From Theobroma cacao (Eukaryota > Streptophyta > Magnoliopsida > Malvales > Malvaceae), in assembly GCF_000208745.1 (NCBI RefSeq), contig NC_030858.1, forward strand, positions 24,675,392 through 24,739,391: a DNA stretch of 64,000 nucleotides. The letters run 5' to 3'. A program made the translations under genes and the position numbers. Below are positions 490 to 64,000 of this stretch, piece after piece. Positions within the stretch are counted from its first letter, which is position 1, and each line of letters starts with the position of its first letter. The notes below the pieces were generated by a model that was given only the letters and a program-made list of their open reading frames with translations, was not told the origin of the DNA and did not search any database.

Positions 490-2720
490 CGTGAGACCTT
501 GACCTTTATAGACTCGTAGATAAAAGTACACGCGATATCCCTAATCAGGGGTAATTTCGTCATTACCTTAGTAAGCCCATAAAAGTAAGTTTTAAACAGT
601 ATTAAGGCCAAAGTAGGCCTAAGGCATTAATGAACGATGAAAATATTGGTAAAATGACAAGGAAACAAAAATTTTGATGATTTCCACAATAGGGGCAAAA
701 AGGTCATTTTTCACCTCGGGTTAGAATTTTTAAGTTTTCATAAACCTGAGCATTTCTAGACCATTATGAACTTGTCCCAGTGTCAAAGGAGTAAAAAGAT
801 TGCATAAAAGATTGGAGGAGAATAAGCTAATTTATGGAGGGGCATTTTGGTAATTTAAATGGAGTGGATAAGCATGGGCTATAAATATCTCTTCCTTCCA
901 GTAGCTTTTACATTCTCAAACAGCTTTTCTTGTTCTTCTTCTTCCATCTCACGTTGCTTCAATCCTCTATGGAAGCTTGATATGAAACTTTCATAACTTT
1001 CTCTCTCTAGCTCCAAATTTCATGCTTTTGGTGCACCCTTTCCATAAAACCCTTGTGCTCTTTCATTCTCTCACTTTAAAACCCTTAAAAAATCTTGTTT
1101 CCATACTCTCTTTCACTAGTTAGGTGTTTTAGAGAGAGAAAAAGGAAGCTTTACAATTGATTGGAGAATTGTTGGAAAGAATTTCAAAGTTTCAAAGCTA
1201 TTAAGGTGAGTAGTAAATTAGAGTTGAAAATTTAGTGTTGAGAATGATTAGAGATTTGAATTTGTGAATACTTTGTAGTTGAGATTGTTAATTCACTTTA
1301 GAGTGATAGGATAGTGAAAATGGATAGCCATTTAAATGGCAATTGAAAGCTAGCTAAGAGATAGCTTTTAGAATTTGTAAGTATGTGGCTTGAATTAATG
1401 GTGATATTAATGTGATGATAGATTCCAACAAAGCCAAACGTCCCAATTGGACCATTAGTGAAGTTAGAGTCGGTTAAAGGCTCAACAATACCGGTGAGTG
1501 GACTTGCATTTCAAACTTGTTTTGGGAAATGTGAATGATTTTATCCATCTTGTCTTTGAAAATGTGTGCCAGGGAGCAAGCCTTGATTAAATGTTTTTGA
1601 TATTATGAAATGGGAGATGTGTATAAGGATGAATCCATGTGTTTATTACTATGTTGGTATGTATGTATATATCTTATGAATACGTGCTGTGTATTGATGA
1701 ATGATGTTGGGTGATGATGTTGAGGTGTGCGAGTAGGGAGTGCACACATGATGATGATTGAGTGTGCAAGTAGGGAGTGCACACATGACGATGATGGAGT
1801 GTGCGAGTAAGGAGTGCACACATGATGATGATGTATGGATACGTAAATGTGTGTGTTATATAAAGTTCACAATATGGTATATGGATGTAATGCATTTGAG
1901 AAATTTGACATGTTAAACTTTGGGAAATTATATGAGTTTCATGTTGTGTTGGTCATGTGAACAGGGTGGCCTTTGCTTGAGGGAAAGAGGAATATTTTTG
2001 CTGGTGCCCTGCTTCTCGCTGCAGCAAGATTCTCTAGGGTTTTGAGGGGTGGTGCTGGCCAGAATCTCACTGCAGTGAGAATGTTACTATAGCCCATCAT
2101 TTAATTGACTTGATTAGCATGAATGCTATTAAAGTTTTCACTCTCCAAATCCTTTGTTGAGCATGGACTCCTTTCAATAAGTGATTGTTCTCATGTGGGG
2201 TTTACATGAGGGGTTTAATAAGAACTAAAATAAATTGCATTGTTTTGAAAAATGAATGCATCATGATTTCGTTAAACATTCCTTATGGTATGCTTGTTCC
2301 CTTTCTTGTTCACTCACCGGGTTTATACTCACCGTTTTAAACTTCATGTTTTCAGCTCAAGAGGCAGCTGGTAATTAGGTCAAGGTGCCCTTGTAGATTC
2401 GTTTCCTTGGTAGGTATCTCGGTATTCAGTAGCCATACATCACTCTGGTCTCTCCGCTGGAAATCGAGTCTTCTTTTTGAGATGTATAGACAAATTTGAT
2501 GTAAATTATTAAGATACATATTGTAGACAATGTACACTTGATTGGTATGCCAGTATGAGTTGGCAATGTTTAGTATCATTTTGATTCAAAGTTATGAAAT
2601 GAGACTTAGCAGCTTTTGATGGAATGATGAACATGTCAGATGAATAGGCTTGCTTAGGCTTAGTGGACTACGTCTAGTGGGCCCATGCACCGATCATGGC
2701 CCGAAATTTGGGTCGTGACA
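490..2720 (+). mobile_element. Solo LTR B1 (family B)
   Basis: This non-coding unit begins (C/T)GTGAGACC and ends GGTCGTGACA. Flanks are CTCCC (485-489) and CTACC (2721-2725), a 5-bp target duplication with one mismatch. It is inserted between the primer-binding site and the gag start of a copia element. Inside are a splice-donor-like AAG/GTGAGT at 1206, three 37-bp hairpin repeats (1725-1835), two CTGCAG-centred palindromes (2014-2029, 2065-2080) and a polypyrimidine plus CAG acceptor ending at 2355. It is homologous, in opposite orientation, to the unit at 4579-10153. No second LTR or internal domain is present. Confidence 0.8.
1725..1835 (+). repeat. 37-bp hairpin minisatellite in B1 (3 copies)
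   Basis: Three consecutive 37-bp units start at 1725, 1762 and 1799. Each contains GTGTGC, GAGTAGGGA and GTGCACAC, so the ends can pair as a hairpin, followed by ATGATGATGATGA. The reverse-complement array is present in B2. Confidence 0.9.
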
Positions 2721-4573: not shown

Positions 4574-5220
4574 AAAATTGTCACGACCCAATTTTCAGGC
4601 CATGTCCTACTCATGGGCCCAATGGACGTAGCCCACTAAGCCCAAACAAACCTATTTATATAATCATACTCATTATCCCGTCAACTATTCTTACATTTAC
4701 ATCTCATAATCTTAACCCTTTAAGTACTTTAATAGTAAATTATAACAATCAAAACTACATTTATATTATCCCAAAATAACATTAACTATTGCCACTCATG
4801 GTAGCTTTACCAATTAAAATGTACATATATGGTCTAAGGTATTAGTACCTTACATCACAGGTATGTATTTACAACAAAAATGACTTTGGGCTTCTAGTGG
4901 AGTGAACAAGGTGAAGGTGCGACTATGAAATGCCAAGATACCTACCAAGGATACGAATCTACAAGAACACCTCGACCTAGTTACAAGCTACCTCTTGATC
5001 TGAAAACATGAATTTGAAAAAGGTGAGTTAAACTTAGTGAGTGAACATAAGAAGGGAACAAGCAATCGATAGGAAGAATTTGGAAATCATGATGCAGCCC
5101 CTCCTTTCAAACTTTGATTAATAACCTCATAGTGTTGCAAAAACCCATGATCAATCCATGAAGTTAAATGGGTGAAAAATATGTCAAAATCAAGCAAGGT
5201 AGCAAGCATGGCAGCAAGTT

Positions 5221-5540
5221 TCTCGCTGCAACGAGAAACAATGTTAGTTTTCATGTGTTTCAATTTTTCTAGCATATCTCCCATTACAGAAGTCCAATTG
5301 ACCTGATTTTTAGACCATTAGAAAGCTAAGAGACAAGGATACAACTTTTATGTTTACCACTTTTCCCAGTTCGGACTGGAAGGTGGTCAAAATCTTCATT
5401 GAAGTGAAAGTACTACACCAAAACCCGAGAGTTTTTCGCTACAGCGAGATTTATTCTCACTGCAGCGAGAATCAAGCCAGTGTGACCCCCAAAATCCGAG
5501 AGTTTCTCGCTACAGCGAAATGAATCTTGCTACAGCAAGA
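5221..5540. repeat. Array of 16-bp palindromes in B2
   Basis: Five near-palindromes fit the consensus TCTCGCTRCAGCGAGA, at 5221-5236, 5434-5449, 5455-5470, 5505-5520 and 5525-5540. In the last copy both arms change together (TCTTGC...GCAAGA), which preserves pairing. Two related copies lie in B1 at 2014-2029 and 2065-2080, the latter a perfect palindrome (TCTCACTGCAGTGAGA). Confidence 0.85.
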
Positions 5541-5742
5541 AACAGAGCATTTTAAGTGAAATGGGTCTTGTTACATCAAAAGCCATTTCCTTATTGAAAT
5601 GAAAAACAATTTGGGAGCAATTAACAATACCAACACACAACACAATCACAATTATTTTCATAAACTTTCTATAACATATATATATTTGTATATACATACA
5701 TCATCATGCATACCATCCCACCACACTCAACTCAATGCAATA

Positions 5743-5890
5743 TCATCATCATGTGTGCACTCCCTACTCGCACACTTCAACATCATCATGTGTGCACTCC
5801 CTACTCGCACACTCTATCATCATCATTCCCTACTCGCATACTCTATCATCATCACGTGTGCACTCCCTACTCGCACAGTTCAACATCATC
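5743..5890 (-). repeat. Hairpin minisatellite in B2 (4 copies)
   Basis: This is the reverse complement of the B1 array. The repeated core is GTGTGCACTCCCTACTCGCACAC, separated by TTCAA or TCTAT and CATCATCAT. The third copy lacks the GTGTGCAC arm. The frames open across it are repeat-derived and not genes. Confidence 0.88.
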
Positions 5891-5984
5891 ACACAACATT
5901 ATTCATCAATACAAAACATATATTCATATATATACCTACCAACATAATATAGAAGCACATGGATTCATCCTTTTACACATTTCA

Positions 5985-8974
5985 TGTCATGACCCGGTAC
6001 TTCCTTCAAGCCCGTGACATCTGCCGCGATGTCTCGATAGACATTCATTACCCAAAATGTCAACCAAAACCTCGAAAGGCTCTTGCATCAATTTTACATC
6101 TCCCCTGTGAGCAATAGTTACTAAATATCATGTTTTAAGGGAATATAAACTATTTTTAAGTCAAAACAAATAAAAAATAATTTTTGCCACATAGGGGTAT
6201 TTTGGTCATTTTTACTCAAAAATTTTAAAACTTGGTAAAAATATAGCATACAATCAAAAAATATACATTTCTTATTTAAAAATAATTTTCGTAATCTAAT
6301 TCATCTATTTAAAATAAAATTTTGGCTAATCAAACTTAATAAAAATATTAAATAAAATATTCTATTTTTTTATAAAACAATATTTATAGAACTCTGCATA
6401 AATAATTTTTGTAGCGTAAAAGCAAAATAAATTCATACATACAGTGACACACGTAGCCAGGTATACAAAATATTCTATAATGACATGTAGGCCCCGATAT
6501 AACCAAAAATATGCAAGACTATAGATCTTCGATTTCTAAAGATGCAGATCCAAAAGCAATCCTCAACAAAATCGACGATCTACAAACTAGACTGAGCCTG
6601 AAATGGGTGAAAAGAAGGGGTGAGTTTTTATAAACCCAGTGAGTAAGCAAAATTCATCTATAACATCTAAAGCCGAGTAAATGGAGACAGTTAAATCATC
6701 TCATCATAATATAATTCATAACATTCAAAACTCATTTCAATTCATATAAAACAATTACATTTCATCGAAAATAATCAATAAAGCTTATGACTCTCTTAAA
6801 CTTGGCTCGTGCCAAAACTCGTACTCGGTGACACCTTGGCCCGGGCATCCAATCGAGTCCCCCAAGGCTGTTAAAACTATATATACACATAAAACATGTT
6901 TTTACATTTAAAAACATAATCATTCCTTGGCGTTGGCTGAGTTTCACCCTCACGTGGTGGTTCGGCGTGAAGTGAACTCTAAATATACCTTAGGAGATAC
7001 CCTCCGCGCCTCTCATACTAAGGTAAAATATAATGGAGTTTATTGTGCCCCTCTAATAGGCTAGTCCACAGAAACCCGCCCACTGCAGTTAGCTAATCAA
7101 ATAACCCACCAAATCAATAAACATTTCGACAGCATAACATGGCTAATAAAATATTACCCAGCCTGTGTCACGGCAAAACAAAGCAGTTTATACATATTCC
7201 ACACAAAACACAAATCCAACCATTCATGCCATCACATTGTCATAAGCCACCAATTCAAACCACATATCAAAACACGAGTATATAGTCTCCACTTACTCAA
7301 TTTCCAAAACCAGTATTCAATTTCAAAACAAGTTATAAAACTCATTTCATTTAACCAACAATTCAAGTTTAAAACATAATAATTTACCATTTAAACTCAT
7401 TATTCTTTAAAACATAAAAACGAGTAGAAACAACTTTAGATAGTTAACATGAAAGTTTGTTACTCACAATAGCGGGAGTTTGGAGTACTCCTATTCTTAG
7501 TCCTCGGGTACAATATCTTTACCCTTATTAGAAGGCTCACCACCTATACATAATACACGACATGTAATTCAATATATTTGTGCCAAACTGTTATAAAATT
7601 ATTTCAGGCTCTATATGAATGCATGAAATTAAATGAGAATTGTCTGAATAATCACTTAAAGACTGTGTTCTACATGGGTTCAATTATGATCGGACTGAAT
7701 TTGTATTCGACCTAACTCAAACTATACACTGTTGAATCAACCAAAACATCCAATTGAACTTCAAATATATTCATTTCACTTCCAAAATTCCAAATACACC
7801 TAAGTACCTCAATGAGCTTAATTGTGACTTAATTCACCGTAATTAAAATTCATTCCGATTTCGATATCCGATACCATAAATCATCAATTATGAGCTAAAT
7901 AACTTGAAATACAACAAAATCCATCATCAATATGTCACCCATAAAATTCGGCCAAAGAGGGTTGTTGAAGGGCATGTGATTTTCTTGCTTGTTTTTCATG
8001 CCAAACATCATCAAACAACTAAAAACACTAAGATATCATGAAATCTAGCAAAATCCACCATCAAAACCTCTCTCCCTAAGTTCGGCCAGCATGCAATCCC
8101 TCATGGAAACTTGTGTTTCATCCATAGAAAGTGAAACAGAAAGCATGGGTAAGGTAAATCTTAAGCTAAAATTGAAAAATCTTACCTTTGATTATTTTGT
8201 TCCTTGAAATTCAACAAATTTCTCTTGGATTTTCTTCTCTAGGGTTTGCTCTTATTCTTTTCTCTTTGTTCTTTGCTTTGGCCGGCCATGAAGAGTGAAA
8301 TGGGAGGAGTGTGTGCTGGTTTTTAAAGAGAATTATAAAAGGATTAAAATTCACCACGTGTCACCATGTAATTGGTCCATGGTTAATAACTTAACAATTA
8401 AGTATTAGCTCACCACCACATGTAATTTCTTAATTATCTAAAGTATAAAATGATAATAGGTGAAATTCATGGGCTTGACAAGTGTTATGGTGGTGTAAAA
8501 TTCCAAAAATTCTAATTACGTCCTTGTGGACACGTAAATTGACCGTTTTGCCCTTATGTTCGAAAAAATGTCAAAATTAAAATTTTTCACTTCTAAAATT
8601 CAAATTATACTCCAATTAGTCAAACTTGGTCATAAATTTTGTCCAACATTCCAATTTTACCCTCGGGTGGCAAAATGGCCATCTTACCCTCGGGTGGTAA
8701 AATGACCATTTTGCCCCTACGTTATGAAAATTCCTAATTTGACTCCAAATTAATCCTCAAACTCCAAATCATCATATTAAAACATTCTAAGGTTCAATAA
8801 CTCTCAAATACATCCTAAAATCTCTATTCAAACTAGTTCAAGGTTTTAATCGACTTAATTGTACCACTAGGTACAATACCCACTTTTAACGATTCTTCGA
8901 GGTATCCCAGTATGTAGATATGTTATCAAGTACATGAATGATATGACAAGTATATAATAAAGTAGGGCTTGACA
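5985..8974 (-). mobile_element. Solo LTR A1 (family A), nested in B2
   Basis: The unit is bounded TGTCATGACCC...GGGCTTGACA and is 2990 bp long. It has a perfect 5-bp target duplication TTTCA at 5980-5984 and 8975-8979. It is inserted into B2, so it is younger than B2. On the minus strand it carries a TATA-like TTTAAAAACC near 8320, a donor AAAG/GTAAG at 8185 and an acceptor CATTTCAG ending at 6598. It shares whole blocks with A2, A3 and A4, such as the GGGGCACGGTAA-type block, the region around the Cys-free AACGCCAAGG phrase and the end GCCGCGATGTC. No coding capacity or PBS is seen. Confidence 0.88.
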
Positions 8975-10153
8975 TTTCACATTTTTCACAGCATCAAAAC
9001 ATTTTATCAAGGGGTTGTTCCCTAGCACACATATTTAAAGAAAAGTTGGATAAAATCATTCAAATGTTCATTCAAATACATTACATTTCCCAAAGAAATT
9101 TTGAAATGCAAGTTCACTCACCAGTCTTTATTGATGTTTTGGTGGGCTCTAGCTTCGACTAATGTTCCGAATGGAGGTGTAGGGTTTCGTTGGAACCTAT
9201 CACACACAACAACATCACCATCAACCCAACTTGGCATTATTACTATTCCAAAGCTATTTTCTAAATTGGGTTCTACTCGTCATTCCTAACTAGTTTCCAA
9301 CTACTATTAAATGGCTATTATTTGCACCATCCTAATCACTTTAAAATGAATAAACAACCTCAACTACAAAACATTCCCAAGTCTCATCACTAGCTATTCT
9401 CAACACTTAAATATCAAATTCTAATTCCCTACTCACCTTGGTAGCTTCGTAGTTGAATCTCTTTCTAAAAATTTCTAGCTATTATGGAAGCTCCCTCTTT
9501 CTCTTTCTAAACACCTAGCTAGTGAGAGAAAGTATGAAAGTAAGATTTTTTTTTTCAAGGGTTTTAAAGTGAAAGAGTGAAATAACACAAAGGTTCTATG
9601 AAAGGGTGCACAAAAGCATGAAAAATGAAGGTAGCTTGAGAGAGTTATGGAAGCCTAAAGAGAACTCCCATAGAGGATGAAGAAACGTGAGAGGGAAGAA
9701 GGAAGAAGAAGAAGAAGCTACTGAAAAATGTGAGAAGAAGCTACTGGAAGATGATATTTATAGCTCAAGCTTATCCAACTCCATTTAAATTATGAAAATG
9801 CCCTTAGCAAGTTAGCTTATTCTGCTCCAATCCTTTATGCAATCTTTTTACTCTTTTGACACTGAGGCCAAGTCCACAATGGTCTAAAAATACTTAAGTT
9901 TACAAAAAATTAAAATTTTGACCCGAGATGAAAAATGACCATTTTGCCCCTACTTTGGAAATCATCATTATTTTATTTCCTTCATCATTTAATCCTTATT
10001 TTCATAATTCATTTATGCTTTAGGCCTACTTAGGCCTTAAAAATGTTTGAAAGCATACTTCTTAGGGCTCACTAAAGAAATGACGAAATTACCCCTGGCT
10101 CGAGTTATTGTGTCTACACCTAGTTATGAGGCTATAGAGGTCGAGGTCTCACA

Positions 10154-12842: not shown

Positions 12843-15800
12843 TGTAACACCCCGTACCCTCGTATAGAAGCCAATAAGACCTTATCGATAAGACGAAGGG
12901 TCAATTGATGTAAATTTAAGTGCCAAAAAACAGTGATGGATGAAAAGAATACTTTGGAATAAAATAATATTTTATTAATAGAATAATATTAAAATATTAA
13001 TATTTTATCTATTGTTGAAATTAGTAATGAAAGGGGACTATATGACTAGTCTAAGTGAGAGAAAAGAAGTAAGAAAGAATTTTGAAGAAAAACGACGTTA
13101 GTGGGGCTTGCATGCCTTTATTAAATAGACCAAGAGTGGGTAAGTATATATTTAAACATTATGGTGACACCTTGGTGAAGTGCAAATTTTATGTTTTATT
13201 TGTACAATTGTAAAGGAAGGAAAATAGAAGGAAATTGAGATTAAAGAAATGTTGGAAAGACCAAATTACAAAAGATGAAAAGTTGGAGGGTCGAATGGTA
13301 AATAAGGAAAAGTTTGAGGACTTATGTCCAATTTCAACATTTGGAGTTAAATGGAAAATAACTAACCAACGAAAGTTAGATTATGTGGGATAATGAGATG
13401 TGCATGTGAATTTACTATTACATACAAATCATAGCATGCAAAAAGGAGAAAGTTAGTGGAAAACATGTGGGACCCCCACCATGTGAAGTAAAAGGAAGAA
13501 TAAGACTAAGTTTACTTGCATGTAATGGCCAAATGAAAAAAGCAAAATGTGGGATGCATGTGACTTGATAGATTAATGAATGACCAAATAAAATACAAGA
13601 TAAAGGTTATGCATGAAATGTGATTGGAGAAATAAGGTGGTGCATGAAAGGAAATGCATGTGAAATGAAATGCAAATAAAATAAACCAAAAAGAATACCA
13701 TGTGAATCAATGCATGGGCAAGGTAATTTAACCAAAGGATAAAGGAATGGACAAGGAAACCTTGCATGCACAAGCCACCAATGGAAAGTGGCTTTAATAA
13801 CAAAGTGAGGAATTGAATGGCATGACATGTAAAGAAAAGAAAAATGCCAAAAGTTACCAAGCCTTGGGCAATCCGCCCATGAAAGGAAAGGAAAGGAAAA
13901 GAATACTTTCACTAGGCAATTTCAAGCTCATTTCTTATTATATCCTCCCACACTAAGAAATAGCAAACAAGTGACTTTGCCTTGAGAGATCTACACGCAC
14001 CTTTGAGAAAAAAGAAAGAGAATCAACCTTGAAAGCAAAAAGAAGGAAAGAAGGAGAAAGAAGAAAAAAAAAGGAGGAAAAAGAAAAAGGTTTGGAGGAG
14101 GCTCGGTTTTGGGGAAGATTAGAGAAAAATCGAAAGGTTTTCTCTTTCATGCCATTGTTGGAGCTTTGAAAAGGCATGAGAGGTTCGGCCTAGTGATTCC
14201 AAGCTAAGGAAGGTAAGAGTTATCATTTTTGTTGAATACATGCTTTGTAAACTGAATGTAATGTGAGATTGTGCTTGTGGTAGCAAGGATCTACAAAGAT
14301 TCAAAGAACCAGGTGCATGCATGCAGCTTGTTCTTGAAAGTATGGTGAGTTAAAGCAAGACAACTAACGGGTAAGTGCTTGAAACCTTAAGATCATGGGT
14401 GGAAAGAAAAGTAAGATGGATATTGATTACTTGTGCTTGTGGCAGCAATGGTGACCAAAGATGTGAGGAATTTGTGAGATATATGTGGAATTCACGATAA
14501 AAATCAAAAGGTAAGCATGCAATGTGAGCATATTATGTTGTATTGAATTTGGTTGGTTATAAGTTAATAGAATGCATGTTAGATTATTGTGAATGATGAG
14601 GATAAAAGATGTGAAATTTGATTAAGATTTGTTGATTGAGGTGCTGCCCCTATATGTATGTGCAATTAAGTATATTGAGTTTAATTTGTTGTTAGGAAGT
14701 GTATAAGTGAGGAAAGTTGTTGTGGTGGCATACCGGAGGAGTTAACGGGTGACCAGCGAGCTAGATTAGCTAGAGACACATCTGAACCAATAGTGACGTA
14801 GTGTCCCACTATTGTGAGGTAAGTAAGGGGTGTCTATTTCAAAAAGGTTCCATAGTATCTAGAATGTCATTTCGTATACTACTATTATGTTAAAGATTTA
14901 TAACTGTCATTGTGCAAAGCATGAGCTGGTAGAAATCCTAGGCGTTTGTGGATGCCATGACTTTTAAAATTTGTTTTGAACATATATATATATATAAGCT
15001 ATATATGTAAAGGGTTTTAAAAATCGGGGAAATAAGCTCTTTAACACGGTTTATGTCAAAATGTGCCTTATTGTTTGTGTGATGTGCATTCATGAATAAG
15101 TTACATATTCACCATGTTGATTTGATATTTAAACCTCATGCAAAGGTTTTATAATATAAAGTCTTACAAAAAGGGGTTTTATCATGTTACCATGATTGGT
15201 ATTTTGGAAATGGTTTTGAAATAAGCTTTTGAGAACCCAACTTGATTTTTAAATGGTTTTATCAAACTGGAAGATTCGAGAGTAAGCAGAATGTCACATC
15301 GGGATAGTGTGACCCTTGTGCACAAGTGAGCTCTAGCTAGAGAACCTTTAGGTCACCAACGGGCTGTTAGACGTGGCTAGGCCACGGTCTGTGATATATA
15401 TACGTTGTAAGGCCACGGGATGACATACGTGGCTAGGCCACTAGTTGATATACGTGGTTGTGACCACATGATTTCTCCGATGTCGGCCAACGTTGTCAAG
15501 ATTGCCATGGTTGTAGGAATCCGGTGGAAGGGAGCCTCCCGGATGTTATTATGTGAAAGCGGGTCCACGAGTTCTTTATTTCTATCACCTACTCGAGAGT
15601 GATATCTTTTTGGGTTTTCAAATACGTATTCTTTCACATGGTGAGAATTACAAGTTTTTCCATAGCTCCCTTATTTATACGATGGATTGTGTTTAATATC
15701 TCGAGGATGAGATCGTTTATAAACTTATGTATAAGCATCGATATTGCTTGATTTTATGAGAGTGTGCGTGTTTATGTTAGCCTGATTTTAAGTAAAAGAC

Positions 15801-16478
15801 AACAAATGATTTCAACGGTAGAAGTCTTTTACTTGCACTGGTATTTTTTTTTATATTACATAAAGTGATTATTTCGAAACATAACTTTTGGTTTATATAT
15901 AAGGCACAAATGCTTCATTTGATTTTAAATTGTTTATATATATTCGTATGCTTTTAATGTTCAAATTATCTATCCTTGGCTTGTTTCCCATCTACGCCTT
16001 GCTCACGGAGCCGATGATCATTGAGTTTGTGAGGCTCACCCCCTTATCTCCCTTTTTTGCAGATAAGTGATCAGCTTAAGTGTATCACCCCAATATTTTG
16101 ACTCGCTGCGACGTAGGTAATGGCATCTCTTAGACTTCCACTCCGAGTCACTCTGTTGCACAAGGCTCATGTTATGTAAAACTGTTAGATTCATAAAATT
16201 ATTATTAGTCTTTCGGATATGTATTTGATAAAAACTTTGAGGTTGTGTATTAGACGCTAAGTGTGATGTTGAAACTATCTTGAAGTTGGTTAAACGTGGA
16301 TATTGTATCTAGTTGCTACACTTTAATTACAGCTATTTATTTGGTTTAAGTAAACGATAGCATTAATATTGCAAGTCGATTTTAATTATCCGAAATCTCA
16401 ACTAAGGCTTTTTCAGGATTTGGCGAGTTCACTCACAAGTCTCGAATGCCGGTAACGATCGGGGATAAGGTCGTTACA
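12843..16478 (+). mobile_element. Solo LTR C1 (family C)
   Basis: The unit is bounded TGTAACACCCC...GTCGTTACA and is 3636 bp long. It has an exact 5-bp duplication ATAAA at 12838-12842 and 16479-16483. It is homologous throughout to C2 (41388-45023), which happens to have the same length. Landmarks are an AG-rich leader at about 13980-14110, a donor-like AAG/GTAAG at 14213, the dyad GTCACATCGGGATAGTGTGAC (15293-15313), repeated GTGGCTAGGCCAC dyads (15370-15470) and an acceptor TTTTTTGCAG ending at 16062. Frames within it are antisense or AT-rich and are not genes. Confidence 0.88.
15293..15470 (+). repeat. Dyad cluster in C1
   Basis: The perfect 6-bp stem GTCACA/TGTGAC with a 9-base loop sits at 15293-15313. 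It is followed by three or four degenerate repeats containing GTGGCTAGGCCAC (stem GTGGC/GCCAC) between about 15370 and 15470. The same cluster is at 43880-44055 in C2. Confidence 0.8.
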
Positions 16479-18883: not shown

Positions 18884-21552
18884 TGTCAAACCCTGTTTTA
18901 TAAAATAATTACGACATCATTTACATGCTCAATAGAATGTTTGCATATTTAGAAAGTTCGAGGAATCGTTAAAAGACGATATTGCCCTTAATGGTACCAT
19001 TAAGTCGATTAAGCCTCGAACTAGTTCAAATAGAAATTTTAAGGTGAAATTAAGAGTTTCACAGTCCATGGATGACTCAAAATGGTAATTCGAAGTTCAA
19101 TGATCAATTTGGAGCCAAACCGAAATTTTCACTATCTAGGGGTAAAATGGTCATTTGCCACTTAGGGATAAAATGAGAATTTTTAGAAAAGATTTTTTGA
19201 CCCCATTTGACTTATTGGAGTATGATTTGAGTATTGGAGTATGATTTGAGGATTTGAAGTGAAAAATTTTAATTTCAGCATAATTTGGAGTATAAGGGTG
19301 AAATGGTAATTTTGCCATCTGGGGGCATATCGGTAAATTTTCACCCCCGATACTTGTCAAGAACAAGGGATTTTATTCATCATGGAAATGGATAAACATG
19401 AGAAATGTGTGGTGGAGAATTAAAGAATTAAAAGTCAAATATATAAAATTCGAACCAATAAGAAAATGCCATGTGTCATGCTTTTATTATTTTATTGTTT
19501 CTTTATAAAAAGGCATAAAAATCAGCCCATTTCTCCCATAGTGGTCTGCCAAACCAGAAGAGAAGAGAAACCAAGGAAGAACAAATCCTAGGTGGGAAAA
19601 ATCAAATAGAAAGTGTTGGAATTCAAGGATTTGATCAAGCAAAGGTAAAATTTCTTTGATTTTGCTAATGATTTACCTTACCCATGCATTTTTCCTTAAT
19701 TTCCATGGTTGAAAAGCATGCTTTCATGGTGAATTCATGGCTGGTCAAAATGGGTATGGAGAGAGAATGATCTTGGATTGGTTTGATTTTTAGGTATGTT
19801 AGTGTTTTTAGGTGATTAATGATGTGTAACATGAAAATAAGTGAAGAAAACCACCAAAGGTTTGGTGTCCATCAATAGCCGAATTCTCTAAGTGATTAAT
19901 AAGGAAGAATGGGATGTTATTCTAGGTGATTTGATTAAGAAATAATAGTTTTTTGTGAATTGAGGAATTGGAAAAGAAATGGAGCAAGTTGGAGTGAAAT
20001 TGGACGCATTGACCAATTTATCGGATGAAAAATCGACTTAGGCCAATGCCGGGTCTAGATGGCTACCCGTGCATTTTTCATTTCATACCACGCATATATA
20101 TCGAGCCTGAAATAGCTTATGACTGTTAGACACAATTTAATTGGAATATGTGTTATGGATTATGGCTAGGTGGTGAGCCATTGGATACCGATAAAGGACT
20201 GTACCCGCGGACTGAAAATAGGTGTGTTTCTACTCTTTATACTGTGAGTGGACAATTTATCGTCTTAAATATCTAGAGTAATTATACTTTTTTGATGCTT
20301 TTATTGAATGGTGAGTTTAAATGATAAAATATTATGTTTTCCAATTAAAATGTTTTTTTAATAAAAATGAGATTTATACTAATTTTGAAATCAAATATTG
20401 TTTTGGGACAATTGAGTATATGGAGACTGTGTTAAATTTATGATTTTATATGTTATTGAAATTGTGGCTTATGACACTATGGCAGCATGATGGCTAAATT
20501 TTTGGGGTTGGCATGAAATATATGAACAATTTTGGATTGGTCTCGGTAGACTAGATTACATTTTATTCGCCATATTATGCTATTGAAAATTTTATGGGTC
20601 TGGTGGTATATTAAACGGTCACTGTAATGGTGGAGGTTTTCGTGGACTGCCTATGAGAGGGGCACGGTAACCCAATTATATACTAACCTCCATGGGGAGA
20701 TGTTGGGTGAAGTATCTCCTGAGGTAAGATTTGAGTGCACCTCACGTTCGGGCCACCACGTGAGAGTGAGACTCAGCCAACGCCAAGGAACAACTATGTG
20801 TCAGATGTGAAAACATGTTTATGGGTATGGGACATTTAACAGCCTTATCGGTCTCAGTGGGATACCTTGACGAAGGTACCCGTGAGAATGATTTTGGTAG
20901 GGGCCAAGTTTAAGAAATTCATAAGTCGGGAAATTTTGACAAAACGAAATTGTTTGGTATGGATTGAAACGAATTTTGCGTTATGAACATTATTGAGATA
21001 TAACGTTTTTATATTGTCTCCGTCTACTCGGCTTTAGATGCTTTTGATGGTAATTGTTTACTCACTGGGATTATGTAATCTCACCCTTCTTCCTATCCAT
21101 TTTTTAGGCTCAGGACAGTTTGTTGATAGTTGATTAAGATGAGAATTAATCTCGAAGTTGCATCCTAGAAAGTAAAGGTTCGTAGTCCTACACCTTCTTA
21201 GTCAGTTGGGGGCCCACGTGTCATTGTAAAAGTAATTTTATACTTCAGTTATCTGATTTAAAGTATGTATGAACATATTTAGCTTTTACACCATGTTTTT
21301 GGCGGGTTTCGGTATTTTTGAAAAAAAATGACAAAAAAGCCCTTGTGAGCTAGAAAATAATATTTTATTGTTTTGATTTGGAAACGACTTATGATTTCTT
21401 GAAATGCGAGATTTAATAATTGTCACTCACTGGGGAGATGCGGAAGCTGATGTTAAACCTTGTAGGGTTTCGATCGGCATTCGGGATAATGAGTACCTAT
21501 CAGGACGTTGAGGCGGTTGTCACTGGCCCGATGGGAGTTCCGAGTCGTGACA
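18884..21552 (+). mobile_element. Solo LTR A2 (family A)
   Basis: The unit is bounded TGTCAAACCC...GAGTCGTGACA and is about 2669 bp. AAAAGG precedes it (18878-18883) and follows it (21553-21558), consistent with a 5-bp target duplication plus one ambiguous base. It has a TATA-like TTTATAAAAAGG near 19501, a donor-like AAAG/GTAAAA at 19645, the hairpin CTCACGT...ACGTGAG (about 20741-20764) and an acceptor TTTTTTAG ending at 21107. It has the same orientation as A3 and is non-coding. Confidence 0.85.
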
Positions 21553-30710: not shown

Positions 30711-31549
30711 AGATTAAAATCTAGAGGTCCTAAGTTCAAGTTTTACGTTAATTTATTGGTGGGTTGATCCATTTTTGAGATGTAATACTTGATTTATATT
30801 GATACGATTTCACCAAAATAAACCTATTAATTTTTTCTTCCAATATATATTGGGTCAAGAAGGAATGGTTTCACATGCATTTTTTTTTCAATCAAATAGA
30901 GGAATTATTAATGCACCTACTTCCTGTTTATTGAGAGTATTGGTCATATGCGCATGATGACTACTGGTAACCAATTTCATTTATTTGACATGGAATCACC
31001 ATTAAAGGTCTGAGGATTGGAATAAACGAGAACGAAGTATCAATCAAAATGCCAGCGATGTAAGGTAATGTATACTGAGCTATTGGGCGACACGTGTACT
31101 TGCTAGCTAGACCAAAAGCTAACATGCTGTTTTCCTCCATTAGGTTTGACTGTTATGATGCAAAAATCAAATCATTAGTGAGATTAAATTTGAAATCAAA
31201 GAATCTTATATATATTTTTAGAAAAAATATAAAACATGCCTTTTTTTTAGAGATGTGGCATGCTGTTATTTTTGTGTTTGGACACGTCAAACATCTGATT
31301 ATTAACTCTATCCGTCAAAAGTACAATCTATTTAATGAGATGAAAGATGAAGTTCTTAATTATGAAATTATTTGTTCAAGTATCAATTGTGTCATTAACT
31401 CTTCATATATACAGGTATCCTTCCTCCTTGATTTTTAGTTTGTTACCACTGTTGAATTTGGTTGATTACAAATTTGAATCCAAGGTAGCAGTAGGATCAC
31501 CCTAACAGTTTGACTAATCACCAAAAATTTGATATGGACATTTATAATT
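30711..31549. other. Spacer left of the Ty3 element
   Basis: No gene is recognised. The 114-codon frame at 31094-31438 (plus) is AT-rich with no recognisable domain and no good start context, so I do not call it. The final 5 bp (31545-31549, ATAAT) are the target duplication of the Ty3 element. Confidence 0.4.
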
Positions 31550-33804: not shown

Positions 33805-36721
33805 TGTCAAGCCCTACTCCATTATATACTCATCATAACATCCATATACTTGAGGACACATCTGCATGTTAGAATGCCTTAGAAATAGTTAAATAATCGG
33901 TATCGTAATTAGCTATGCAACTAAGTTAATTTAAAGCCTCGACCTAGTTCAAATAGGAATTTTAAGATGAAATTGAGAATTTTAAAACCCCAGAATGACT
34001 TAATATGGTGATTTGGAGTTCGAAGATTAAATTGGAGTCAATTAGGAATTTTCATACCATAGGGGCAAAATAGTAATTTTGCCACTCGAGGGCAAATTTG
34101 GAAAGTTGGATGAAAATTTTGATCAAGTTTGACCAATTGGAGTATAATTTGAGATTGAGAAGTGAAAAATTTCAATTTCGAGCATAAGGGCAAAAATGTC
34201 ATTTTTGGGGTCCACAAGGGTAAAATTGGAATTTTACGATTTTACACCACCATGATATTTTTCAAGCTCCAGAATTTTACCTATTATTATTTTATGCTAT
34301 GGATAAATATTAGAGCATTTGTGGTGGTGAGAAAAGGCTTAAAAATTAAGTTAAAATAAGTGGACCAATAAAAAGGTGACATGTGTCAAAAATTAAATAC
34401 TATTATATTACCATTTAAAAACCAGCCGATACTCTTCCACTTAGAAATTGAGGGCTGACCAGCACCTGCAGAAAAGAGAAGAAAAGAAAAGAAAAACCCT
34501 AGGGAGGAAAAACTAAGGAAAATTTGTTGAATTTTCAAGAAATTGGTGACTAAAGGTAAGATTTTTAATCTTAAGCTTGAAATTCATCTTGCCCATGCAT
34601 TCTTTTCCATTTTCCATGAATTAAATTCAAGTTTTCATGAGGGGCAATATGCTGGGCAAATTTAGAGAGAGAAAGTTGGTGATGAATTTAGTTGAATTTC
34701 AAGGTAACTTAGTGTTTTTAGGTGTTTAGTAACATTTAGTATGAAAATTAAGCAAGAAATCCACATGCCCATTATAGAACCTATCTTGGCCAAATTTTAT
34801 GGCTGAGGTTTGATGATGAATTTGGTTGTTTTTCATGCCCTTTAGATTGTATTTGGTGCTTAGGAATACCGAAAATCGAAAATGGGTACCGAAAAATTTT
34901 ACTCCCGCTAGTTAACAATTTACACCATAATGAGGGATATTTTGGTAATTGCACTTAGAATAGATTTTTAGTGAAGTGTGTGGAATTTTGGGGAGTATTG
35001 GAAGTGCAATAAATTAATTGGAATCGAATTGGACATTTAGACCGATTAAATAGTGTATAGTGTGCGATAGGCCGAACACCTCCCATTTTATTGCATGCAT
35101 TCATATAGAACATAGAATAGTTTTGTGACAATTTGGAATAAGTATATTAAATTTCCTGTTGCACATTATGTATAGGTGGTGAGCCATCAGATAAGGGCAA
35201 AGGTATTGCACCCGAGGATCAAGACTAGGAGTGTTGTAAATTCCTGTCAAAGTGAGTAACCACTGTTCATCTTATCTATCTAGAGTATTTTTACAATCGT
35301 TTTTATGATTTTAAGAATATTGAACCTAAATGAATTTTATGTTTTATGACTAATAATCGATTTAAGGAATAAGGTTTATGACTTATTTTACAATTCAATA
35401 ATATTTTTGAAAATGTGAGTATGTAGAGACCAACCTCTGATGTTGCCTATATATTTAAGTTTACGTACCTACGTTTGGAATTGATGATTTATGAACTGAT
35501 ACGTGATGACATATGTGGCTGGGTTTTTGGGTTGTGAAATATATAAACTGTTTGTTTTCCTTTGACAGGTTGGGTAGTATTATGTTAGCCACGTTATGTT
35601 GTCAAAATTTTATTGATTGGTGGGTTATTTAATTAGCCACTGCAGTAGGTGGGTTTCCATGGACCAGCCTATTAGAGGGGCACGGTAAACCCCGTTATAT
35701 TTACCTTAGTAGGAGAGGCGCGAAGGATATCTCCTAAGGTATGATAGAGTTCACTTCACGTCGAACCACCACTTGAGGATGAACTTTGCCAACGCCAAAG
35801 GATGGCTAAACTATGTTTTTATGAGTAGTTGTTAACTTAATAACCTTGGCGGACTCGGTTGATGCCTCGACCAAGGTATCACCGAGTATGATTTTTGGCA
35901 CGAGCCAAGTTTTTAAGAAAATCATAAGTCGTGATGTGTATTATAATGAAATGTGTTGTTTTATATGATTTGAAATAAGTACAAAATGTTGTAGATTATG
36001 GTATGATGAAAAGTTAACTGTCTCCATTTACTTGGCTTTAGAAGTTAATAACGGACTTTGTTTACTCACTGAGTTTATGAAAACTCACCCTTTCTTTTTA
36101 ACCATTCAGGTTCAAGATAGTCTGTAGGCAGTCGATTTCATCAAGGATCTCTTTGGGACTTACTTCCTTGGAAATCGTAGGTCTACATTCTTGCACACTT
36201 TTGATTATCTCGGGGTCCATATGCCACTGTAGGATAATTTTAAATACCTGGTTTACTGTATCACTATGTGTATGAATTTATTTTGTTCTTACACTATAAA
36301 AATTATTTATGCATAGTTCTATAAAAATTGTTTTATAAGAAAATGAAATATATTATCGAATATTTTTATTTAGTCTAATTAGCTAACTTTTCACTCCAAA
36401 TGGATGATTTAGATTACAAAAATTTATTTTTGATCAGAAATGGATATCTGTTTACCATATGTTGTATTTTTATCAGGTTTTAAAAATTTTGAGTAAAAAT
36501 GACCAAAAACCCCTGTGTGGCGAAAATTTTATTTTGATTGTTTTTGATCTAAAATAGTTTATATTCTCTTAAAACTCGATATTAGTAACTATTACTCATA
36601 GGGGAAGTGGAAAACTGATGCAAGAGCCTTGCGAGGTTTCGATTGACATTCCGGGTAATGAATGTCTATCGAGACTTCGCGGCAGTTGTCACGGGCTCGA
36701 AAGGAGTGCCAGGTCGTGAAA
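33805..36721 (+). mobile_element. Solo LTR A3 (family A), inside Ty3 element
   Basis: The unit starts TGTCAAGCCC and ends GTCGTGAAA (CA decayed to AA); it is 2917 bp. Exact 5-bp flanks CATGA occur at 33800-33804 and 36722-36726. It is inserted in opposite orientation between the zinc-knuckle and protease parts of the Ty3 element. It has a TATA-like TTTAAAAACCAG (about 34422), a donor AAAG/GTAAG at 34556 and an acceptor CATTCAG ending at 36109. It is homologous to A1, A2 and A4. Confidence 0.88.
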
Positions 36722-37870: not shown

Positions 37871-37885
37871 CCCGCTTTGATACCA
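37871..37885 (-). other. PBS of Ty3 element
   Basis: TGGTATCAAAGCGGG on the minus strand, two bases inside the 5' LTR. It is complementary to the 3' end of initiator methionine tRNA in its first 10-12 bases. Confidence 0.85.
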
Positions 37886-37887
37886 AA

Positions 37888-41387: not shown

Positions 41388-43334
41388 TGTAACACCCCAT
41401 ACCCTCGTATAAAAACCAATATGACTTTATCGACAAGACGAAGGGTCAATTGGCGTAAATGTAAGTGTTTAAGAGTGTTGAAGGATGAAAGGGATATCTT
41501 AGAATAAAATATTTCGGATGCGATAAAATAATAATAAAATAATAATATCTTGTTGAGGTCGAAGTTATGGAGTTAAAAGGTGCTATAGAGCTAAACCGAC
41601 GCAAAGTAAGGTATTTTGGAGCTTTATAAGGTTAGAGGAAAATTTTGGAATAAAATAATAATTTTTTGATAAAATAATATTAAAATAATACCGATGTCAA
41701 ATTGGTTATATTACATGAAGAATGGCTAATTTGTACAATTTGTCTAAGTGGGGGAGTGGAAGTAAGGAAGAATTTTGAAGAAAAACGACATTAGTGGGAC
41801 TCGCGTGTCTTTATTAAATAGAGCAAGATCGGGTAAGTAAATATTTAAATATTATGATGACATCTTGGTGAAGTGTAGCTTTGATATTTTGATTGTACAC
41901 ATGTAAAAGAAAAAAGATAGAAGGAAATTAGAATTGAATAAATGTTGGAAGGACCAAATTGTGAAGGATGAAAGTTTGGAGGGTCAAATGGTAAATAAAA
42001 AAAAGTTTGAGGACTTATGTACAATTTCAACATTTGAAGTTAAAAGGGAATTTACTAACCAAGGAAGGTTAGATTATGTGGAATATAAGATGTACATGTG
42101 AAATTCACAATTACATGCAAATTATTGAATGCAAAAAAGAGGAAGTCAGTGGGAAACATGTGGGACCCCACCATGTGATAGTTGACAAAGAGAAAAAGAA
42201 TAAAGAGTATTTAAGTGGAAGAAAATCATGGTTTGGCAAGGATAGCCCATGGTAAACAAGCAAGATTGGTAAAGTGATTTGAAAAGAAAAAGGCATAATC
42301 ATAACATTTAATAGAAAGAAAACAAAATAAGGAAATTTGAGTTGAATGGCATGACATGTAAAGAAAAAAGAAAAGAAAATAATAGAACAAGGAAGGACTT
42401 TGGGCAATCCACCCATGAGAGAAGAAAAGGAAAGAAAAAAAAGATTTCACAAGACCATTTCAAGGCCATTCCTTGTGATGTTCACCCACACCAAAGGAAT
42501 GAAAAGAAAACAAACAAATTTGACTTTTTCTTTGAGAAAATCGCACCATTGAGACAAAAAAGAGAGAATCAGCTTGGAGGCAAAGAGAGAAAGAAGGAAA
42601 TAAGAAAAAAGAAAGGAGAAAGGGAGAAAGGGAGAAAGAAAGAAAGGAGAAAGAAGAAAAAGACAAGGAAGGTTCGCCCTAGTGGTTCCGAGCTAAGGAA
42701 GGTAAGTAGAACTTTGATTTTAGTTGTGATTTCTTGAGGAAATGAGTTGGTAATTGTGTGAGAATGTTTGTGGCAACAAAGATCCTCCAAGATTTGAAAG
42801 AAATAGATGCATGCATGTGGGTCAATCTTGGAATGCATGGTGATTTTGAAGCTAGATAAGCAATAGGTGAGTATTTTCGTCTTGAAATCATAAATAGACA
42901 AGAGAAATGAGAAGTGCGCTAATTGTTTATGCTTGTGGCAGCAATGGTGACTGAGAATGTGAGGAATAGTGGATTATATGTGGAGCTCAAGCTAAAATCG
43001 AAAGGTAAGCATGCAATGTGACTACATTGTGATGTGTAAGCTTTGGTTGATTAATAGTATATTGAATGATTGTGAATCATGTTGATGGAAACTATGAAAT
43101 TAGGTTAAGGATTTATTGATTGATGTGCTGCCCGTATATGAGTATAATTTAATATATTGAGTTTGAATTGCTGCTAGGAAGTCGTGTAAGTGAAGAAGAT
43201 TTGCCGTGGTGGCATACTAGAGGAGGTAACGAGTGATCGGCAACTAAAATTAGCTAGATATGCACCCGAATTAATAATGACATAGTATCTCACTATTTTG
43301 AGGTGAGTAGAGGGTGTTGATTACCAAATTTCCA

Positions 43335-43371
<37 letters not shown>

Positions 43372-43395
43372 NGGGTGTTTATTACCAAATTTCCC

Positions 43396-43439
<44 letters not shown>

Positions 43440-45023
43440 CTATACGATTAATAGACATGTCGATTTACTTTAAATGTGATTTATGGAAAGCATGAGCTGG
43501 TAGAAACCATAGGAAATTGTGGATGCAAGTTGTTTTGAAAGTTGTTTTGGATATATCTATAGATAAGCTATATATGTAAAGTGTTTTAGAAAGAAAAAAC
43601 AAGCCTTTTTACGATGTTTGCATTAAAATTCATGCCTTGTATTTTTGTGTGATATGCATAGCTAAATGCATTTGTTAAATCATTTAAAATGCAAACTTTG
43701 AGCACCGATTTTATTCTGATCTTTGTACAAAGTTTTTATACCATGCCATTTAATGTGAAAAGCAATTTGAAGGGTTATCGAACCTTGATTTCAAACATTT
43801 GAATGAAAAAGCCTCGAAAAACTTGATTTTGTTTTGAAAATGGTTTTGACAAACTGAGAGTGTCGAGAGTAGGTTGAATGTCACATCGGGATAGTGTGAC
43901 CCTTTTGCACAAGTGAGCTCTAGCTAGAGAACCTTTGGGCCACCGACGGGCTATTAGACTTGGCTGAGGCCATGGTCTGTGATTATACATGGCAAGGCCA
44001 TGGGTTGTTATATGTGGTTAGGCCATAAGTGATATCGCAGTTACGACCACTTGATTTCTCCGATGTCGGCCAACATCGTCGAGACTGCCATGGCTATGGG
44101 AATCCAATGGAGCGAGGCTCTCGGATTGTTATTACGTGGAAGTGGGGTCACGGGTGATTACTATGCTTACCTACTTGAGAGCCTTGTGAGTTTTTGACAC
44201 ATACGCTTTTGCATGGTGGAGAGTTAAGGCTTCTCTGCAGCTCCCCTTGTTTGAATAAAAGCTTTCAGTGCTTACTTGATGATTATGAGTTGGTTTATTT
44301 GGCTGTACACGTTGATTTCTTTTCATGCCACACATTTTGGGAGCGTGCATACTTTTATACTATTTTTCATATTTTGATGGCAAGTGATGTTTTCGATGAT
44401 TGAAGTTTGTTTTACTACACTTGTTTCTGGCATTGTTTTGCCAAGTGAAATATTGCATTATAATTTTACGGCATCATTTTTACAAGGCACAAACACTGGA
44501 TTTGATTTTTCTAAGATTATTATTCTTATTCTGGTTTTATCATTTAAATTTATCTACTTTATGCTTGTTTCCCATCTACGCTCTGCTCACGGAGTCGATG
44601 ATCATTAAGTTTATGAGACTCATCCCCTATTTCCCCTTTTGCAGATAGTGATCAGCGTTGCATGCAATCATCGGTGCTTATGGTCCACCGTGGATAAGTA
44701 AAGGCATCCCATAACACTTTATTCCGAGTCGTTTTGCTGCTAAAGGTCGAGTCAATTATAGTTTGATGTATTTGTAAATAGTGTCAAGTAAATGTGCAGT
44801 TAGATACTATAGAATTTAATGTATTCTTACGATTACGGTGAATAAAGGATAAGATGGTTTAATATGATTTATGTTCAATTCTTATTACAAAGAGGTATAT
44901 GGTTCAAAGTAATTTCATGGATTGATGGCATATTAACTAAAGTTTCAATTAAGGCTGGTTCAGGACTTGGCGGTTTCCTTCACGAGACTCAGACGAGGTT
45001 GTGATCGAGGAGCGGTCGTTACA
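41388..45023 (+). mobile_element. Solo LTR C2 (family C), inside Helitron RPA region
   Basis: The unit is bounded TGTAACACCCC...GTCGTTACA, 3636 bp, with exact flanks AAGCG at 41383-41387 and 45024-45028. It is homologous to C1. It has an AG-rich leader (about 42540-42665), donor AAG/GTAAGT at 42702, dyad GTCACATCGGGATAGTGTGAC at 43880-43900, GTGGTTAGGCC-type repeats to 44055, and acceptor TTTTGCAG ending at 44644. It includes an undetermined base (43372) in a (TA)n tract. Frames inside are low-complexity. Confidence 0.88.
43310..43440 (+). repeat. Duplicated (TA)n segment with an N
   Basis: GGGTGTTGATTACCAAATTTCC plus (TA)n is followed by a single N at 43372 and then GGGTGTTTATTACCAAATTTCC plus a second (TA)n. 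C1 has only one comparable GGGGTGTCTATTTC segment, so this is either a local duplication or an assembly artefact. Confidence 0.85.
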
Positions 45024-59600: not shown

Positions 59601-59699
59601 ATTAATGTATAAGATCAATTTAGTAGTCTTGCTTGGGCTTAATGGGTTGAGCCCATTGAGTCTTTGCGCCGATCATGGCCCGCGAATTGGGTTGTGACA
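56622..59699 (+). mobile_element. Solo LTR B3 (mosaic of families C and B)
   Basis: The unit starts TATAATACCTCG (TG decayed to TA) and ends GGGTTGTGACA, 3078 bp, with exact flanks ATTAT at 56617-56621 and 59700-59704. The left part, to about 58385, aligns with C1/C2 (TGCTGCCCGTATACG, TATTGAGTT, GGTGGCATGCTGGAG, GAGACACCTCCGAAC). The right part aligns with B1/B2 (GTGAACTTGCATT, GAACAAGCC, TCACTCACTGAGTTTATACT, TTCATGTTTTCA, CGATCATGGCCCG). The canonical donor seen in C is GATAAG here (about 57567); a CAG acceptor lies at about 59316. Confidence 0.85.
58600..58885 (+). repeat. 60-62-bp hairpin minisatellite in B3 (5 copies)
   Basis: Units begin GTGCATGTG near 58611, 58671, 58732, 58792 and 58851. 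Each has GCATGTGC, a CGAAGTGGGCA-type spacer and GCACATGC (a perfect 8-bp inverted repeat), then CGGTAATGATG and CGTGATAATTACAA. Frames across it are repeat-derived. Confidence 0.92.
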
Positions 59700-63260: not shown

Positions 63261-64000
63261 TGTCAAGACCCGAAACCATCCTTGAGTCCGTGACAACCGC
63301 CGCGATGTCCCGATAGGCACTCATCCCCCCAATGCCATATTGAGACCTCGCAAGGCTTTCGTATCAGTTTCTTATCTCCCTTGTGGTTAATCGTTCCCAA
63401 ATGTCGTATTTTAGAGGCTTTTAAGCCTTTTTTCGATTTAAAACAGTGAAAAAATAAATTTCACTTCACAGGGGCATTTTGGTCATTTTTCATCAACAAT
63501 TTCAAATTCGACCAAAATATAGTACTTAAGCGAGAAATGCATATTTCGAAATCAAAATTAAATTTGAATGTCTAAAACGTGATTTAAAATGGAATTATAA
63601 ATTAATAAATTAAAATAAAAAATTATTCGACAAAATATTCTATTTCTTACAAATTAATATTTATAGAGTATTCTGAAAATGATTTTTAGTAGCGTAAAAG
63701 TTAAATATATTTATACAAACTATAATACGGAAACCAAAGTATGAAATTTAATTTACAGTGCTACGTGGGCCCACAAATGAAAAAAAGTAGTAAAGACAGT
63801 AAACCTTTAGTTTTTGAAATAGTATGGCCAACTATAGTTCTCGACGATGTCTGCTATCTACAGGGTAACTCGGCCTGAAATGATGAGATAAAAAAAAGGG
63901 TGAGATTATAAAAACTCAGTGAGTAAACAAACACCATCTAAATAATCTAAGGCGAGTAAAGGGAGACAATTAAAATAATTCATTTCAGCAAATTTCTCAC
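63261..64000 (-). mobile_element. Family A LTR A4 (partial, window edge)
   Basis: The unit starts TGTCAAGACCCG at 63261 and follows A1 block by block: GTGACAACCGCCGCGATGTC, GATAGGCACTCAT, CCTCGCAAGGC, GGGGCATTTTGGTCATTTTT. An acceptor-like CATTTCAG (minus strand) ends at 63875, preceded by the same ACTCACCC/ACTCAGTGAG context as in A1. It is inserted into copia integrase and runs off the window, so its far end and target duplication are not visible. Confidence 0.85.

Follow-up and report, generated by a model that had tools for sequence, protein, structure and literature searches.

Known spliced elements

The intron of Ogre lies in the coding region and not in the long terminal repeat (LTR). 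In human T-cell leukemia virus type 1 (HTLV-1), bovine leukemia virus (BLV) and the foamy viruses, the splice donor is located in R, inside the LTR, the acceptor is outside the 5′ LTR, and the unspliced RNA is the genome. We analyzed a window of 64,000 nt of Theobroma cacao (the whole stretch of DNA under study, on contig NC_030858.1), whose self-comparison yielded three repeat families, A, B and C. These repeats are LTRs of plant LTR retrotransposons, and their signals suggest a leader intron contained in the LTR itself. They resemble HTLV-1, BLV and the foamy viruses in having a candidate donor in the LTR, but the acceptor of these viruses is outside the 5′ LTR, unlike the candidate acceptor of the cacao units.

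Several spliced plant elements are described in the portions of the literature that we consulted. BARE1 and EVADE, also LTR retrotransposons of plants, likewise have RNA in both spliced and unspliced form, but their intron is in the gag-pol coding region, whereas both sites lie inside the LTR here (PMC3735527, PMC12786077). Bagy2 env and CRR are also named as spliced (PMC3735527), a review of December 2025 gives Ogre and EVADE as notable intron-bearing plant LTR elements (PMC12786077), and long-read studies of sunflower and triticale report introns in gag transcripts (PMC7730604, PMC7765848). Diaspora is similar to the cacao units in its long LTR with predicted donors, in its acceptors flanking the gag start and in posing the same leader problem; it differs in that the available part of the article predicts no acceptor in the LTR and in that its splice sites are predictions only (PMC1142308). 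In that part, its authors describe introns upstream of gag as unreported (PMC1142308). The LTRs of plant Metaviridae have been considered too variable in length to model (PMC3601003).

Revolver, a repeat of 2.9–3.0 kb in rye and other Triticeae, has TGT-type ends and a TATA box at 221 (PMC2851119). Its complementary DNA (cDNA) of 728 nt comprises three exons (342/88/292) and spans introns of 750 and 1237 nt; its ends (TGTgAcGCCC and TGTaAtGCCC, in inverted orientation) are 60% similar at both sides to the LTRs of barley large retrotransposon derivatives (LARDs) (PMC2851119). It is said to encode 139 aa and was classed as class II-like, and the text available does not show its author describing it as an LTR (PMC2851119). 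Revolver resembles the cacao units in its size of about 3 kb, its TGT..CCC-type ends reading TG..CA, its TATA box near 0.2 kb and, with respect to the putative introns and candidate exons of the cacao units, its leader exon, its introns of 0.75 and 1.24 kb and its small middle exon of 88 nt, with splicing that is cDNA-supported in Revolver. It differs in its 139-aa coding claim, its class II-like assignment and its being a grass element, and it was compared by its printed 20-nt ends only. The barley LARD LTRs are also long and non-coding, with a variable middle and more similar ends, but they are said to carry other sequence in place of Revolver exons 1 and 2, and no exon plan is reported for them in the part consulted (PMC2851119).

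Among the matches listed in our literature search, an intron inside a plant LTR was not the subject of any title or abstract start, and narrowly worded queries gave no hit or a single paper on a lentiviral vector. An earlier note on this DNA, in which the introns were proposed, had known of no described plant LTR family with this architecture. No such family indeed appears among these matches, but Revolver is a precedent with cDNA-supported splicing, though not called an LTR by its author. Spliced plant LTR elements are known with introns in coding regions; the intra-LTR leader intron is a proposal drawn from sequence, for which Revolver, which seems to be similarly built, is the precedent.

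LTR units and their splice-like signals

We counted nine units (Table 1): the seven of the earlier note, to which C3 and the partial A4 were added. The termini read TGTCAARCCC..GTCGTGACA in family A, TGTGAGACC..GTCGTGACA in B and TGTAACACCCC..GGTCGTTACA in C, with TG..CA ends decayed in B1, C3 and A3. Identical duplications of 5–6 bp flank seven of the eight testable units; the copies at B1 agree at four of five positions, and the 5′ end of A4 falls outside the window. Because of these ends and target duplications, the units are LTRs; they are solo LTRs, and no two-LTR element of families A, B or C was found within the window. Collinear U3 matches relate A to B in all six pairs (E from 4e-7 to 0.001), with matches at the acceptor in three of them. 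A3 and C3 match at the acceptor (E = 0.001), and the only match at the donor is one of 21 nt between A1 and C1 (E = 0.64).

The seven intron spans of the earlier note are exact: in the sequence, each begins with the first and ends with the last nucleotide of the putative intron. Its donor motif AAG/GTRAG describes A1 (CAAAG|GTAAGA), A3 (TAAAG|GTAAGA), B1 (TTAAG|GTGAGT), B2 (CCAAG|GTGAGT), C1 (GGAAG|GTAAGA) and C2 (GGAAG|GTAAGT) and fails for A2 (CAAAG|GTAAAA), which is also the exception to the CAG acceptor, with TAG. The donor is intact in seven of the eight units spanning its position and the acceptor in all nine; C3, the eighth, reads AACGATAAG at the donor and has an intact acceptor. Three U2-type features are present in the units: GT-AG, a consensus donor and a branch motif at the usual distance. 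When all GT and AG dinucleotides were scored, the donors had the following ranks within their unit: A1 1/178, A2 4/158, A3 1/167, B1 2/151, B2 1/174, C1 4/234 and C2 1/214 (for the acceptors: A1 1/158, A2 2/145, A3 3/170, B1 6/144, B2 10/161, C1 1/250, C2 1/259, C3 4/185). Among dinucleotides common to all aligned rows, the donor was first of 41 in A, first of 80 in B and second of 101 in C; the corresponding ranks of the acceptor were 1 of 43, 4 of 77 and 1 of 108.

Since these sites had been picked for their looks, we judged them by asking how often an equally good best pair arises when the columns of the alignment are shuffled. The threshold was set to the true scores of the earlier note's own pairs, CTNAY was required before the AG, and 3000 column shuffles were made per family. 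A conserved donor, acceptor and CTNAY reaching the true pair occurred in 2 shuffles for A, 17 for B and 0 for C; without the branch condition, these numbers were 113, 416 and 2. The antisense strand scored below the sense strand in all three families.

The spacing of the signals is nearly constant. Each unit contains two or three CTNAY, of which we counted the CTCAC or CTCAT closest to the optimum; its adenine precedes the acceptor G by 23, 24, 22, 24, 24, 24 and 22 nt (A1–A3, B1, B2, C1 and C2), by 29 nt in C3 and by 26 nt in A4. The block CTCACTGRGTTTAT has nine matches at up to two mismatches (1.14 expected), seven of them at unit acceptors. The earlier note's statement that an ACTCAC block always precedes the acceptor was too strong, as C1 and C2 miss the pattern at two mismatches and B2 is degenerate. 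Its idea that the block could hold the branch point agrees with the adenine spacing of 22–24 nt (seven of eight units); C1 and C2 are without the block. A TATA-like site lies 142, 141 and 142 nt before the donor in A1–A3, 327 nt in both B1 and B2 and 275 nt in C1; the pattern had no match in C2 and C3. Further TATA-pattern matches precede the donor in A1 (154), A2 (143, 203 and 205) and B (326, 352/353 and 131/132). In 60-nt flanks, T content rises across the donor in all seven units and falls across the acceptor in six of seven, and the whole of exon 1 in B equals its intron in T-richness. In A, the 120 columns before the donor are 1% gapped, against 14–31% in the U3, intron and post-acceptor parts; in C, they are 26% gapped.

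Full elements of family A and a possible second intron

Full elements were traced for family A only, B and C being known from LTRs alone. The host assembly (325 Mb) was queried with the A1 acceptor region, and 40 of 2625 candidates were scored. In two host copies (L020 and L028), the LTR is followed by TTGGTATTAGAGC or TTGGTATAAGAGC, with flanks 83% alike over 948 bp. The C8 copy consists of a 5′ LTR (broken by another A LTR), an internal region of 5.06 kb and a 3′ LTR; the similarity of its two LTRs is 92.8% over 1457 bp, TTGGTATTAGAGC follows the 5′ LTR, and gag and integrase pieces are present. Its sister is the C5 copy. The order Retrotrans_gag, RVP_2, RT_RNaseH, Integrase_H2C2 and SH3_Tf2-1 was pieced together from the two sister copies, both of which carry broken genes, and a Chromo domain match at the integrase end (E = 2e-4, 21.7 bits) lies below the cut-off of 25.1. 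The A-type LTRs bound a Ty3/gypsy element, chromovirus-like. The 3′ LTR of the C8 copy retains donor and acceptor. Its donor region (L039:1881-5021, minus strand) is tandemly doubled, with AAAG|GTAAGC and AAAG|GTAAGA about 51–53 nt apart.

In both of these copies, the leader ends in TTCTGTTTCTTTTTATAG|ATCATCATG; this acceptor-like site is 6 nt upstream of the presumed gag ATG and 147 or 148 nt past the LTR. This site ranks second and third in the 700-nt stretch, and the pattern used found no CTNAY at the usual distance. A copies have AG|GT or AA|GT some 70 nt downstream of the LTR acceptor. The GT is present in all 28 aligned copies (25 outside the window and 3 inside), with G before it in 22 copies and A before it in the other 6; A1 in the window reads GA. 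Similar donor-like sites occur in B (GTAG|GTATCT at 58 nt), C3 (GCAG|GTACTT at 52), C1 (GTAG|GTAATG at 54) and C2 (AA|GT at 53). The second donor-like and the gag-side acceptor-like sites would both be accounted for by an exon of 52–71 nt and, after it, an intron that covers the remainder of U5, the primer-binding site and the leader, and the intra-LTR intron is probably the first of two leader introns, as far as these signals go.

We also searched for a middle exon. A candidate of 63–65 nt within the LTR intron of C is common to C1 and C2 (1 of 1000 shuffles as good). The corresponding candidate in B is doubtful (36 of 1000), and that in A was rejected (409 of 1000). The short exon that may follow the LTR acceptor is another candidate counterpart of the small middle exon of Revolver.

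Proposed mechanism and competing readings

We consider it likely that these LTRs carry a leader intron, with the spliced RNA acting as gag-pol messenger and the unspliced RNA as the replicating form. Transcription would probably start just past the TATA box, 0.4–1.1 kb into the LTR. The leader exon, about 110–300 nt long and ending in AAG|GTRAG, would be followed by a spliceosomal intron of 1.15–1.94 kb wholly inside the LTR, closed by the CTCAC branch region and CAG. The short second exon (52–71 nt) would end at the weaker second AG|GT, and a second intron would extend from there through the remaining part of the LTR, across primer-binding site and leader, to the acceptor beside the gag ATG, giving a gag-pol messenger with a short leader. 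The termini, the duplications, the signals and the element around the A-type LTRs are visible in the sequence, whereas we infer the start sites, the splicing, the second intron and this division of labor. An element copied through RNA should lose its introns, and an intron in a repeat that is rebuilt at each round requires that spliced RNA stay out of replication. Spliced RNA without a primer-binding site would not be copied; replication would be left to the unspliced form, and the intron would thereby be retained. If this is true, splicing away the primer-binding site would be a simple exclusion mechanism, many solo LTRs would be cassettes of a promoter and a leader intron beside genes, two-exon non-coding transcripts could be accounted for, and Revolver would be reclassified.

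No other single reading accounts for the signals as well as the intron within the LTR proposed in the earlier note, but this may be only part of the structure, given the gag-side acceptor-like site. Because this site is present in two copies, the LTR donor might join it directly instead of a second intron following. The LTR acceptor would then be skipped in the 5′ LTR and serve at most for a terminal exon where the LTR is a 3′ or a solo one. This direct join, which we regard as unlikely, agrees with the position of the acceptor-like site, 6 nt upstream of the gag ATG in each of the two copies, and with Diaspora, predicted to have LTR donors and acceptors around the start codon in the part of the article available (PMC1142308). 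However, the LTR acceptor and the branch-like block are common to A, B and C3, the spacing is tight in all units, and the Revolver cDNA is spliced inside its unit (PMC2851119).

More improbable still is that there is no splicing, good-looking GT and AG having been picked from AT-rich relics whose conserved blocks serve otherwise. The shuffle test, the fixed spacings and the single plan across three families argue against it. In its favor are the ordinary identity at the sites, the neutral decay in young relics, the equal-scoring other sites in the units and the equally conserved islands in the intron. The earlier note expected GT and AG to be conserved above their neighbors; this is at best weakly so between subfamilies and not so among young relics. 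Copies outside the window keep the donor GT in 14 of 15 cases and the acceptor AG in 19 of 28, and the GT is found in all eight divergent donor copies, yet 33 of 80 columns equal this. The stretch TACTCACTGGGTTTAT..ACTCACCC is the joint best 30-column window of A, tied with two others.

Several results weigh against a leader intron and its two-intron extension. In A, B and C, respectively, 140 of 3090, 228 of 2610 and 862 of 3940 windows of 9 columns are at least as conserved as the donor, the 49 columns up to the acceptor are matched by 433 of 3050, 345 of 2570 and 942 of 3900 windows, and equally conserved islands exist inside the intron. Nine of the 28 outside copies are without the acceptor AG (eight CAA and one CGG). 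Young A relics keep the acceptor CAG in 12 of 20 cases, compared with 121 of 212 for other CAGs, and the donor GT in 7 of 8, compared with 0.81 of 2228 other GTs. Cross-family matches at the acceptor (E from 0.001 to 0.06) are no better than several non-collinear ones, other sites in the units score equally well, and the best-scoring conserved acceptor-like AG of B sits 58 nt beyond the claimed acceptor. In A, the second donor (GTCTAC) fits the consensus poorly, and the surroundings of the gag-side acceptor are ordinary in conservation (87 of 401 windows as good). A depletion of upstream ATGs in exon 1 was rejected as an effect of composition (14 seen; shuffle mean 13.8). The scores use approximate dicot splice frequencies; TTGGTATTAGAGC/TTGGTATAAGAGC resembles the initiator-methionine primer-binding site of plant elements, and our guess for the lineage of the A element is Tekay/Del.

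The acceptor is mostly lost by CAG to CAA changes, as deamination of methylated CHG would give, and the TAG of A2 and L017 fits the other strand. This loss may mean that methylated CAG sites decay in relics that are silenced, in which case young relics would be uninformative on the conservation of the sites. In searches for already spliced copies, the 24-nt junction probes of seven units had nothing under 6 mismatches in the window, and the A1 probe had no match at up to 6 mismatches in 148,858 bases of host stretches.

That the units are gene-like transposons, as the author of Revolver saw that element, and not LTRs, is refuted for A and hardly credible otherwise: size, TATA position and exon plan are similar (PMC2851119), but the units have target duplications and TG..CA ends, those of type A bound gag-pol with a primer-binding site, and the longest open reading frame (ORF) is 37 aa in nine spliced models (from seven units, 402–600 nt, cut 290 nt after the acceptor), with no Revolver-like ORF of 139 aa. 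Since the LTRs described here share its plan and are without such an ORF, our comparison suggests that Revolver is probably an unrecognized spliced LTR. A wider idea, which we hold only tentatively and think less likely than the leader intron itself, is that a widespread plant lineage uses a two-intron leader as a switch of RNA fate, of which Revolver and the LARD LTRs would be a grass branch misread as a separate class.

Table 1. LTR units, putative introns and associated candidate features (positions in the window).
Feature	Positions	Strand	Remarks
A1 solo LTR	5985..8974	-	nested in B2; duplication TGAAA; B1 = empty site
A2 solo LTR	18884..21552	+	duplication AAAAGG
A3 solo LTR	33805..36721	+	duplication CATGA
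A4, 3′ part of fourth A LTR	63261..64000	-	CTCAC adenine 26 nt upstream of the acceptor (63875)
B1 solo LTR	490..2720	+	start decayed to CG; duplication CTCCC/CTACC
B2 solo LTR	4579..10153	-	split by A1; duplication ATTTT
C1 solo LTR	12843..16478	+	TGTAACACCCC..GGTCGTTACA; duplication ATAAA
C2 solo LTR	41388..45023	+	duplication AAGCG
C3 solo LTR	56622..59699	+	C-like in its 5′ part and B-like in its 3′ part; duplication ATTAT; acceptor at 59317, donor destroyed (~57565)
A1 putative intron	6598..8185	-	TATA-like site at 8327
A2 putative intron	19645..21107	+	GTAAAA..TTTTAG, weakest of set; TATA-like site at 19504
A3 putative intron	34556..36109	+	TATA-like site at 34414
B1 putative intron	1206..2355	+	TATA-like CTATAAATA at 879
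B2 putative intron	5000..9436	-	interrupted by A1, 1442 nt without A1; TATA-like site at 9763
C1 putative intron	14213..16062	+	GTAAGA..TTTTGCAG
C2 putative intron	42702..44644	+	donor GGAAG|GTAAGT, acceptor CAG
C1 TATA-like site	13938..13946	+	275 nt before donor
C1 branch-like CTCAC	16035..16039	+	adenine 24 nt before acceptor G
A2 possible second exon	21108..21177	+	ends AAAG|GTTCG
B1 possible second exon	2356..2413	+	ends GTAG|GTATCT; among conserved acceptors of B, that AG scores best
C1 possible short second exon	16063..16116	+	ends TAG|GTAATG
C1 candidate middle exon	14446..14510	+	GTGGCAG|CAATGG..AAAAG|GTAAGC; common to C2; 1/1000 shuffles as good
C2 candidate middle exon	42942..43004	+	counterpart of C1 candidate

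Other features of the window

C3 is a mosaic LTR: its first 1.75 kb are C-like and the rest is B-like, with a switch near 58370 that falls within the putative intron, and a single ATTAT duplication encloses the whole.

Tandem arrays able to form hairpins lie in the putative introns at 1712-1832 (+), 5742-5891 (-), 58604-58892 (+) and 15410-15457 (+), with units GTGTGC..GCACAC in B, GCATGTGC..GCACATGC in C3 and GCCACG..CGTGGC in C1. Compared with shuffles, one of the two stretches tested in B and one of the two in C3 have a better fold (z about -3.9), and both C stretches have none that is better. The A intron contains a conserved island with a long hairpin (CACGTGAGGGTGAAACTCAGCCAACGCCAA) at 6890-7030 (-), 35700-35840 (+) and 20660-20790 (+). 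We do not claim a conserved RNA structure there, the hairpin having z of about -2 in A1 and A3 and the covariation term, from three rows, being positive and non-supportive.

A scan with Rfam returned zero matches at gathering scores. The acceptor block was scanned in IMG/VR (7 + 4 loci) and GTDB genomes (2 loci) and the C 5′ end in IMG/VR (1 locus), all non-plant collections, and none of the 14 loci was above chance similarity.

The window is AT-rich and crowded with transposon relics, including Helitron and PIF1 domains, ATHILA ORF-1 and a copia-type reverse transcriptase. The Helitron relic (50351-52917, minus strand) carries PIF1 helicase and Helitron_like_N domains on separate ORFs. An ATHILA ORF-1-like ORF ends in C3, and more ORFs lie beyond the opposite end of C3 (59639-60565 and 55574-56524, minus strand), as if C3 had inserted into that element. 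The copia-type relic (62003-63165, minus strand), with RVT_2 and SH3-like matches, is broken into ORFs, and A4 lies directly upstream. Finally, direct repeats of about 0.4 kb at 31546-31948 and 37885-38298 flank both A3 and an ORF of retroelement type at 32921-33310, which had no match in Pfam; these repeats are probably short LTRs of another element that hosts the nested A3.

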